The position numbers and the translations under genes were made by a program. Under the pieces are notes generated by a model. It searched no databases and was not told the origin of the DNA. It saw only the letters and a program-made list of their open reading frames with translations. From Myxococcaceae bacterium (GTDB lineage: Bacteria; Myxococcota; Myxococcia; Myxococcales; Myxococcaceae): a stretch of 32,231 bases of DNA. This document shows positions 6,685 to 13,293 of this stretch, in pieces. Position 1 is the first letter of the stretch. Each line of letters begins with the position of its first letter. Where the stretch lies: positions 5,651 through 37,881 of the forward strand of contig JALHOS010000019.1 of the NCBI GenBank assembly GCA_022842905.1, in the 5' to 3' direction.

Positions 6685-6918
6685 TCACACCGCGCCTGAT
6701 TTCAAGACGAAGTAAATGGACTTGTAGAACATGTCCATCGCCTTGAAGAGCCAGCTGATGATCGGGACCATGTCCCCGTTGTGCTCGGGGTGAGGCACCG
6801 GCGTCAGCGCCGCGAGCCCACCCGCCAACAGCAGCACGTGCGCGACGATGCTGTACTCCACCGTCGACTGCCCGCGCTTGAACCACGCGCGAAGTTTGGA
6901 CCGCCTGGTCATGTGCAT
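6685..6918 (-). CDS. Small Flp/TadE-like prepilin-type membrane protein
   Basis: A 77-residue protein with a basic N-terminus (TRRSKLRAWFKR) running into GQSTVEYSIVAHVLLLAGG. The G-Q-S-T-V-E-Y motif at the start of a hydrophobic helix is characteristic of Flp pilins and TadE-like pseudopilins, where a prepilin peptidase cuts after the Gly. The rest (about 40-77) is a second amphipathic or hydrophobic region (WLFKAMDMFYKSIYFVL), which is unusual for a Flp pilin. Start is the ATG at 6918, three bases after the upstream stop, with GAGGTGA at the junction as a ribosome site; an ATG at 6912 is possible. Function as a minor or major pilin-like subunit is inferred from the motif and the TadE-like neighbours. 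Confidence 0.75.
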   Translation of the reverse strand: MHMTRRSKLRAWFKRGQSTVEYSIVAHVLLLAGGLAALTPVPHPEHNGDMVPIISWLFKAMDMFYKSIYFVLKSGAV

Positions 6919-6921
6919 GGG

Positions 6922-7782
6922 TCACCTCACCTCGTTCGACATGAGAATGTGGACCTGCGTGCCTTCTTTGCGCAGGGCCACGCTCCAGGTGCGGTTCTGC
7001 CGCACGCCGGTGATGACGCGGCGCTCGTCGGTGCTCTGCGACGTGTCGACTGTCCACCCGTTCGTCTTCATGTGACCCTGGAAGAATGTGTCGACCTGGC
7101 CCAGCTCACCATCGGTCAGGTGGGCGAAGATCTGCTGGCGCTTGTAGCCCGGCCCTTCACCCGCCAGCTCGATGATGCGGGGCGTCGACGCGCCCTTGGG
7201 GAGGACGACGCCTTCGGGCAGCTGTGGCTCGACGCCGGCGAGCATGGCGGCGGGGAACATCTTCCCCAGCATGACCAGCGTCTTGCCGGTCTGCGGCATC
7301 ACCGTGACGCTGTACATGGGCTCGTGCTCCACGCCGCCGTCGATCAAGTCCGTCCCGTTGATGTCCCGCATCCACGCGACGTAGCCGCTCTGGGGCCCGG
7401 TGATCGCAGACGTCCACAGCACGCCGCCGTCGCTCATGGCGCGGCGATAGAAGGCCAGCACGTCTCCAGGGGTATCGTCGGTGTGAAACCACGCCACTGA
7501 GTACGGCGCGTTGAGCAGCTTCCCGCCGGTGACCATGCGCCGCGGCAGCGCGTTGGGGTACGGCGGCACGTTGCTCAGAATGTCCGGGTCCGCCGCCATG
7601 TCGTCGCCGGAGTGCTGCGGGGCCCCCAGCGGCACGGCGCGCTCGGCGAGCGCGGCCGCTTCATCGAGCTCGAGGTCCATGGACGGCTCGCGCAGAAAGG
7701 ACGCGACCAGGCCGACGGTGGTGCCGGCGACGGCCGCGCCGACCAACACCAGCCACACGGGAATGCCGCGCTTCGAGCTCAC
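6922..7782 (-). CDS. Membrane-anchored protein of the TadE-like cluster
   Basis: A 286-residue protein that begins at a GTG overlapping the previous stop (GTGA at 7782-7779). The short basic start SSKRG leads into one membrane helix (IPVWLVLVGAAVAGTTVGLVASFL, about 6-29). The remainder is predicted periplasmic, with no cysteine and a pattern of beta-strands (YSVAWFHTDDTPGDVLAFYRR, MYSVTVMPQTGKTLVML). YSVAWFHTDDTP followed by an alpha segment recalls the small domains that bacteria use for assessing or binding residues in envelope proteins, but no family was recognised. It sits between a TadE-like gene and the Flp-like gene, three bases from the latter, so it probably takes part in the same assembly. 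Confidence 0.8.
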   Translation of the reverse strand: MSSKRGIPVWLVLVGAAVAGTTVGLVASFLREPSMDLELDEAAALAERAVPLGAPQHSGDDMAADPDILSNVPPYPNALPRRMVTGGKLLNAPYSVAWFHTDDTPGDVLAFYRRAMSDGGVLWTSAITGPQSGYVAWMRDINGTDLIDGGVEHEPMYSVTVMPQTGKTLVMLGKMFPAAMLAGVEPQLPEGVVLPKGASTPRIIELAGEGPGYKRQQIFAHLTDGELGQVDTFFQGHMKTNGWTVDTSQSTDERRVITGVRQNRTWSVALRKEGTQVHILMSNEVR

Positions 7783-11468: not shown

Positions 11469-11526
11469 CGGATAGCTGGACGCAGCCTTCGACTCGTCGA
11501 CTGCGCGCACAGCCGGCGCCCAACGC

Positions 11527-13293
11527 CTACGCCGCGGCACACCGGCGACGACGCCACAGCCACAGCGCCAGGCCCACGGGCGCCAGGGCGAGATCGCCGC
11601 TCGCACACCCGCCGCAGCCAGACTTCTGTACCTTGAGGTTGCGCGAATAGTAGTCGTCGACGCCGTCGGCGCTCTCGATCTCCACCCCCTCGTACTCGAC
11701 GAGGTAGCCCTTGGTCGTCGTGTGGCAGGGGTGCTCGCGTGTCGGGAAGTGCCGCAGAATGTCCTGCAAGGCGGCGCGGGCGCGGTTGTGATCGCCCTTG
11801 TTCACTTCCTTCTGGTACTCGATGAGCAGCGCGCTGCACTTGCGATCGAGCTCCGGGCGCACTTCCTTGAGGCGCTGCTTGGCGATCGCCAGCACTTCGG
11901 CGGGGCGGCTGGGCGTGCTCTCGAGCAGCAGCCACGCCTCTCGGTACTGCTTCCAGCACCGAAAGAGCGAGTCGGCGCCGACGTTCTTGAGCTCGCAGCT
12001 CTTCTCCGCGTTGTCGATGGTGATGCGGCCCTGGCGGCCGGCCTCTTCGCTGGTGACCTCGGGCACGGGAATCGTCTCGACCCACACGTTCCAAATGCGC
12101 CACTCGTCCTTGGCCGGCGGGTTGCGCACGTTGTCGAAGATGAGCGTGTTCTGGTCCCGCGGCTTGAGAATGTCCGCGGGCAGCACCATCTCGTTGGTGC
12201 GGTTCTCGACGTCGAGGTTGTCCGGCGGCACGGACTCGATGTCGGTGCCATTGAGCGTGACCTTGACCTCGTCCTTCTCGATGGACCTGGCCTGGTAATG
12301 CAGCACGCCGACCGTCCGCATGGCCTTGTTGAGCGTGAAGTCGAAGGCCTTCTCGGCGGTGCGGCGGAAGTCGACGCCGTCCCCTTCGCCGAAGCTGTCC
12401 GCGAGCGGCTCCACGTCGGCCGTGAGCGTCAGCGGCTCGGGCTTGGGTGGCTTGTCGGGCTTGGTGGACAAGTAGATCGCGCCGCCCACCGAGCCGACGA
12501 CCACGATCAGCAGCGACACCGCGACGATGACTTTCGCCGCCACCGGCATGTCGCGGAAGGCCAGCGCGAGCTTGCCGCCGATCGACTGCTGCATGGCGCG
12601 GCGCTCTCGGGCGCGCTCCGCGGCTGACTGCTGCGCTTCTTTCTTGAGCCCCAGCGCCTTGGCGAGCGAGGTGCGGGGCTTGTCGGCCAGGTCGAGGTCC
12701 GCCGGGCCGTCATCCACCGGCGCTTCGTCTTCGTCGGGCTCGTCGTCCGGCGGGTCAGCCTCGTCTTCGGCGGGCTCGTCTTCCGCTTCGTCTTCTTCGT
12801 CGCGGCGGCGCTTGGACTTGGCCTTGGCGGCAGGCTTCTTGGCCAGCGCCTTGGGCGGCTTGCGCTCGACCTCGCCGGTGGCACCAGGATCGTCCCCGGC
12901 GGCGTCCGGGTCGACCGTCGAGCGGAACTCGGGGCCCTGCTCGTCCATGGTGGACTGCGGATCCTCCGCTCGCGTCGGGCGGCGGGGCTCTTCTTCTTCG
13001 ACGGGGATCGCGAACTCGTACTCCACGTCGCCGATGGCGACGATCTCGCCGCCCTTGAGCTCCTTGGGGACTTTGATCGCCGCGCCGTTGACGCGGGTGC
13101 CGTTGGCGCTGCCCAGATCCTCGACGAAGAACTTGCCCTTCTTCTCGTACACGCGGGCGTGGGCGCGGCTGGCAGCGGCGTCCTTGACGACGATGTCGTT
13201 GTCCGCGGTGCGCCCCAGCGTGGCCTCGCCGCCGTCGAACGTGTGTTCCTTGCCCTCGTCGGCCCCGGTGGTGACTCGCAGGATGAAAGGCAC
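11527..13293 (-). CDS. FHA-domain membrane protein with MYXO-CTERM-like tail
   Basis: A 588-residue protein taken from the GTG at 13293; the ATG at 13335 is rejected as start because the codons between (CTT, AGG, TAT, CCT) are rare here. An FHA domain fills about 5-95 (ATLGRTADNDIVV, SRAHARVYE, SANGTRVNG), with the phosphothreonine-binding Ser/Arg/Asn pattern intact. A long acidic and basic low-complexity linker (about 100-225) follows, then a membrane helix at about 251-275 (VIVAVSLLIVVVGSVGGA). The remaining 300 residues should be periplasmic, with a helical part near 440-520 (ILRHFPT). The last 30 residues run Gly-Cys-Gly-Gly-Cys, a hydrophobic stretch and RRRR, matching a MYXO-CTERM-like sorting signal. 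It is the first gene of the TadE-like operon and a possible phosphorylation-responsive component. Confidence 0.85.
   Translation of the reverse strand: MPFILRVTTGADEGKEHTFDGGEATLGRTADNDIVVKDAAASRAHARVYEKKGKFFVEDLGSANGTRVNGAAIKVPKELKGGEIVAIGDVEYEFAIPVEEEEPRRPTRAEDPQSTMDEQGPEFRSTVDPDAAGDDPGATGEVERKPPKALAKKPAAKAKSKRRRDEEDEAEDEPAEDEADPPDDEPDEDEAPVDDGPADLDLADKPRTSLAKALGLKKEAQQSAAERARERRAMQQSIGGKLALAFRDMPVAAKVIVAVSLLIVVVGSVGGAIYLSTKPDKPPKPEPLTLTADVEPLADSFGEGDGVDFRRTAEKAFDFTLNKAMRTVGVLHYQARSIEKDEVKVTLNGTDIESVPPDNLDVENRTNEMVLPADILKPRDQNTLIFDNVRNPPAKDEWRIWNVWVETIPVPEVTSEEAGRQGRITIDNAEKSCELKNVGADSLFRCWKQYREAWLLLESTPSRPAEVLAIAKQRLKEVRPELDRKCSALLIEYQKEVNKGDHNRARAALQDILRHFPTREHPCHTTTKGYLVEYEGVEIESADGVDDYYSRNLKVQKSGCGGCASGDLALAPVGLALWLWRRRRCAAA

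Follow-up and report, generated by a model that had tools for sequence, protein, structure and literature searches.

A six-gene pilin cluster of a Myxococcaceae bacterium, very probably an FHA-headed form of the Tip3 and KilO cluster of the Kil predation pilus

Myxococcus xanthus uses the Kil Tad pilus, which has four exchangeable minor-pilin tips, in contact-dependent predation (Herrou et al. 2025, PMC12075869). The genetics of the tips and of kilO as well as pilus formation have been demonstrated in this species, and the heterotrimeric tip was shown genetically to be required for prey killing (PMC12075869). In addition to its tip, the tip3 cluster encodes KilO, an Flp adapter of 59 aa (mxan_1150; PMC12075869). 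Pilins are named here according to that study, with the first pilin as KilM and the third as KilL, as inferred from the spacing of mxan_4660, mxan_4659, mxan_4658 and mxan_4655. M. xanthus gene numbers beyond those printed there were obtained by counting.

This work concerns six genes on the reverse strand at positions 6685-13293 of a 32,231-nt stretch of Myxococcaceae DNA, further referred to as the window. They very probably encode Tip3 (KilM3-KilN3-KilL3) and KilO of the Kil Tad pilus used in predation, with the gene for a Kil-associated FHA membrane protein at the head of the cluster. The cluster was assigned in this way because it shares the gene order of the M. xanthus cluster with its 59-aa KilO, its KilN belongs to the KilN3 clade and its own genome encodes the Kil core. 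It is an FHA-headed layout variant of the known Kil tip system, and what novelty is left resides in a conserved gene termed M and in the linkage of the FHA gene. An apparently orphan pilin operon is hereby placed in a predation machine whose tips are kept as separate cassettes sharing one core.

Gene calls confirmed the number and place of the six genes as given by a first-pass annotation, which had also described five of them as coupled or nearly touching. The last five genes are coupled, with successive gaps of -4, -11, -4 and +3 bp, and the head gene is merely close to the second (+58 bp). The head gene (11527..13293, -) encodes an FHA membrane protein of 588 aa (Pfam FHA, 57 bits). It is followed by the KilM3 equivalent (10575..11468, -), a TadE-family minor pilin of 297 aa with an uncertain start codon, the N-terminal sequence EAG/QAAVETA and a Pfam TadE score (PF07811) of 45 bits, above the cut-off. 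The KilN3 equivalent (8983..10578, -), a large TadG-like minor pilin of 531 aa, starts with RRG/QALVM and scores 21.8 bits for PF13400, just under the cut-off of 22.3. The 404-aa KilL3 equivalent (7779..8993, -) is a minor pilin with an extended ectodomain and RRG/QAAVEL at its N-terminus; it has no Pfam match, and its homologues are the third pilin of their clusters. M (6922..7782, -) is a membrane-anchored protein of 286 aa, recognized by its AlphaFold (AF2) model and by profile matches to other tip clusters. At the end of the cluster lies the KilO equivalent (6685..6918, -), an Flp-type minor pilin or adapter of 77 aa with a counterpart in M. xanthus. It has no Pfam match, and its N-terminus RG/QSTVEYS displays the Flp-pilin motif G/XXXXEY. 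The pilin-type N-termini earlier proposed for these four proteins are thus borne out by their motifs, and for some also by Pfam. A 237-aa protein with an N-terminal TM helix (5925..6638, -), encoded 46 bp downstream of the KilO equivalent, possibly extends the cluster. It has no Pfam match; neighbouring genes 37-49% identical to it were found in loci L046, L050, L052, L054, L098 and others, and a gene of this type comes after KilO in many FHA-headed tip3 loci. A promoter scan found none, and terminator-like sites did not exceed chance level.

The order TadE-type minor pilin, KilN, minor pilin, M and Flp adapter is identical to that of M. xanthus AM003 (L091/L151), in which KilM3, KilN3, KilL3, M and KilO succeed each other and the product of the last gene of L091 has exactly the published KilO length of 59 aa. 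The two clusters also have TadE/TadG-type pilins in common and are both unlinked to the core genes. The 297-aa protein is about 40-45% identical to the first gene product of tip3 clusters. In the KilN tree, the 531-aa protein and M. xanthus KilN3 form one clade with a support of 100/99, be it on long branches, and the other M. xanthus KilN paralogues fall outside this clade. The window cluster differs from M. xanthus tip3-kilO in its head FHA gene, in the length of its KilO equivalent (77 versus 59 aa) and in a KilN identity of about 30%. Prey or partner specificity of the window KilN may differ as well, because even the nearest relatives share only about 33% identity with it and it stands on a long branch beside a paralogue on contig C61 of the same genome. 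That contig holds a second tip3-like pilin triplet (L040:6790-9904) without M, KilO or FHA gene, the sister of the window copy in the KilN tree, again on long branches. The AF2 model of the KilN3 equivalent (pLDDT 77) shows a long alpha1 helix followed by a mixed domain; a fold search with the protein against the PDB gave no match at E ≤ 0.001. The protein is probably the distal part of the tip.

The Tip4/KilK set of kil cluster II (mxan_4648-4661) has the order KilM-KilN-KilL-M-...-Flp adapter in common with the window cluster, and its cluster contains an FHA homologue after kilH. It is, unlike the window locus, linked to KilB/G/H, includes an extra 269-aa gene before KilK and encodes a larger KilN4 of another clade. 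A tip4-type set was not found in the fragmented assembly of the genome under study. In M. xanthus AM003, an orphan KilN4-like gene (L154:2959-5037, 692 aa) occurs with no other minor pilin genes adjacent. Canonical Tad/Flp loci (TadE/TadF/TadG) share the TadE and TadG-like minor pilins and the G/XXXXE cleavage motif, but the window locus lacks their ATPase, platform, secretin and peptidase.

When 98 relatives were searched with the 531-aa protein, 76 genomes gave a match. Conservation of gene order, which the first-pass annotation had put forward as a check, was found: all five genes occur in the same order in 43 of 53 distinct loci, which is far more than chance, and several of the remaining loci stop at a contig edge. 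According to gene calls and BLAST on the fetched regions, the stable order comprises a TadE-type pilin, a TadG-type pilin, a third pilin, M, often a twin-CX3C protein, and an Flp-type protein. In 33 of the 53 loci, the small twin-CX3C gene is found no more than four genes away. Many other relatives have this small Cys-rich gene between M and KilO; M. xanthus tip3 and the window lack it, and in the window only 3 bp separate M from the Flp gene. Examples of these small secreted proteins are located at L043:5405-5620, L044:12358-12579, L046:13242-13472 and L058:12706-12924, among others, and a similar one beside another M. xanthus tip (L153:4139-4456). Some Myxococcus species have two tandem tip3 clusters (L076, L077, L086), the second of which is without M.

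No Tad core gene was found in the window, in line with the first-pass annotation, and KilA, B, C, F, G, H and P are absent from all related tip3 loci fetched (3-19 kb each), so that neither the cluster nor its relatives include a complete Tad locus (TadA ATPase, TadB/C, secretin, prepilin peptidase). Linkage of Tad core genes to orthologous clusters elsewhere had been named as the finding that would contradict an undescribed system. Such genes do not adjoin tip3; the link exists indirectly, via the Kil core cluster of M. xanthus, in which the head FHA gene has its homologue and where the paralogous minor-pilin set Tip4 lies as well.

The genome under study encodes a Kil core of its own. Contig C482 carries genes for an FHA protein, the FHA-fused ATPase KilF, the short secretin KilC, the prepilin peptidase KilA and a further FHA protein (76%, 77% and 40% identity to M. 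xanthus for KilF, KilC and KilA, respectively), and contig C562 those for KilB (75%), KilG (75%), KilH (67%) and an FHA protein. Two KilP-like Flp genes (C3, C93), close homologues of the M. xanthus AM003 KilP candidate L210, are candidates for the major pilin; all of them score below the Pfam Flp cut-off, and with an offset of 12, A84 of L210 would correspond to A96 of the 97-aa protein as numbered in the publication. Two FHIPEP (T3SS) genes are 83% and 62% identical to the M. xanthus pair, either of which possibly belongs to the needleless T3SS*. The view that the cluster has no Tad machinery of its own and borrows export from a machine encoded elsewhere is supported, with the known Kil Tad pilus as the lender. 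The epithets 'stand-alone' and 'undescribed' are not supported, given this machine on C482 and C562 and the genetic characterization of tip3-kilO in M. xanthus in 2025 (PMC12075869).

Three other explanations were weighed against this assignment. A surface structure standing alone, independent of any Tad pilus, would agree with the lack of Tad core genes in the window and in the loci fetched around relatives, but is hardly credible at all in view of the Kil core in the same genome, the action of the M. xanthus orthologues as Kil pilus tips (PMC12075869) and the strong co-occurrence with KilF. Over the 98 genomes, a KilN-type gene and a strong KilF are both present in 72 and both missing in 21, with only KilN in four and only KilF in one (Fisher p 2e-16, uncorrected for descent). 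As the absences are concentrated in one family (f5), in which an ATPase match of just 50% identity was counted as lack of KilF, descent accounts for part of this co-occurrence.

Minor pilins prime the pseudopili of type II secretion systems (T2SS) in general, and the cluster proteins could be minor pseudopilins that serve the T2SS starting about 4 kb away. A secretin is indeed nearby, contrary to what the first-pass annotation stated: gspD and gspC are located at 1-2591 (-) of the window, and gspE, F, G, H and I continue the operon on the same contig (C19:1-5650, L039). These genes belong to the T2SS, as two PilT/PilU-like ATPase genes at 18409-20936 belong to the T4aP. The MYXO-CTERM-like tail of the FHA protein also speaks for this explanation, the cell surface being the destination of MYXO-CTERM proteins (PMC11980579). 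This explanation is nevertheless highly improbable. The T2SS is already equipped with GspG/H/I genes, upstream on C19, the 77-aa protein bears the Flp motif of Tad systems, and no T2SS was noticed among the matched neighbours of Myxococcus, Corallococcus and Archangium tip3 loci. The T2SS was rejected as export machine on family, as the cluster proteins match TadE/Tad Pfam models instead of forming a pseudopilin set, and on the KilN clade, which is that of Kil tips. Less remote, though still unlikely, is a paralogous tip that has left Kil predation, for example as an adhesin tip on a Kil or other Flp filament. The window KilN, with its long branch and low identity, points in this direction, as do the sister set on C61, without M, KilO and FHA, and the presence of two KilP-like genes. 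Against it, all five tip3 genes are retained with coupled reading frames, and the Kil core is conserved at 67-77%, KilA excepted.

For the Tip3-KilO assignment, homology, gene order, clade and presence of the Kil core are established here, and from these we infer how the cluster would act in this organism. A prepilin peptidase, KilA or another, would mature the minor pilins, which would assemble into a heterotrimeric spearhead whose outermost part is the KilN3 domain. KilO would join this spearhead to the KilP filament, driven through the KilC secretin by the KilF ATPase and the KilG/KilH platform, all encoded elsewhere in the genome. Contact with prey would then lead to extension, recognition and killing. 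M may assist tip assembly or export, and the FHA protein may be what ties the tip to the core machine or to a phospho-signal.

M and the FHA gene are two conserved partner genes that look new relative to the published main texts. The main texts on Kil do not discuss them, and the numbers assigned to them by counting, mxan_1151, 4657 and 4649, were not found in the full texts searched. In the laboratory model M. xanthus, both genes belong to Kil regions or tip clusters that have been published. M is a testable gene for the assembly and selection of tips, and the FHA protein one for how prey contact reaches the pilus.

Members of the M family come after the minor pilins in each of the four complete tip clusters of M. 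xanthus, with profile matches to the gene in the equivalent tip4 position (prob 96.4, E 1e-9) and to the other two complete clusters (prob 97, E 1e-10). The AF2 model (pLDDT 86) consists of a TM helix and two alpha/beta domains. M has no Pfam match above chance and no sequence relative in the PDB, and an internal repeat detected by profile (E 3e-5) is weak, covering only 30 columns. Fold matches are weak too, several of them in the PsbP/Mog1/Eag (DUF1795) group. The top match, DynU16 (E 6e-4), was discarded for its TM-score of 0.19. EagT6 is matched with prob 0.97 and a TM-score on target of 0.43, yet at an E-value of 0.13, with no sequence match and with M being a membrane-anchored two-domain protein, so that this is a resemblance only. 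Eag proteins serve as chaperones for the TM helices of effectors (PMC12881460), and this likeness suggests that M could handle the alpha1 helices of the minor pilins. It is possible, if rather doubtful, that every complete Kil tip cluster has in M a fourth component that works in the periplasm, helping the trimer of minor pilins to assemble or acting as its chaperone (it might hold their hydrophobic alpha1 helices much as Eag proteins do with effector TM helices), and that the FHA-TM-periplasmic protein is a physical link between core and tip, hence its gene in either locus.

The FHA protein is composed of an N-terminal FHA domain, a low-complexity linker, one TM helix, a conserved extracytoplasmic region and a MYXO-CTERM-like tail. 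It may exert phosphorylation control, as its FHA domain reasonably suggests. Its M. xanthus homologue (L155:10918-12372; 42% identity over 241 aa and 40% over the FHA domain), by counting probably mxan_4649, immediately follows kilH in the Kil core, an arrangement shared by most of the Kil-bearing genomes that were examined. The core copy is missing in seven of the seven genomes examined at both the tip3-linked FHA gene and the kilH region (G000, G003, G015, G017, G025, G031 and G035; convergent in G031), in which the FHA gene next in the cluster comes directly after kilH; G004 is the exception and carries both copies. Relocation of the gene from kil cluster II to tip3 fits this exchange pattern, but the FHA tree separates the tip3-linked members. 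Since the tip3-linked proteins group together on one side of a branch (support 90/89) and there is also a third class, which is unlinked, an old duplication followed by differential loss is just as possible. A common function in Kil for both locations is the simplest reading. The C-terminal tail (window 11527-11640) comprises a Cys motif, a TM helix and an Arg run. It scores 14.8 bits for TIGR03901 (MYXO-CTERM), below the curated cut-off of 20, and occurs in none of the aligned FHA homologues. A cytoplasmic domain and a surface-sorting tail on one protein would be odd.

Among the relatives, a record titled Comamonas sp. KCTC 72670 has Myxococcus-type tip loci (L095, L125), and its organism label is apparently wrong. 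Elsewhere in the window, another FHA protein, resembling a sigma54-type regulator, is encoded at 2794-4389 (+), near an ECF sigma factor-like gene (4477-4992).
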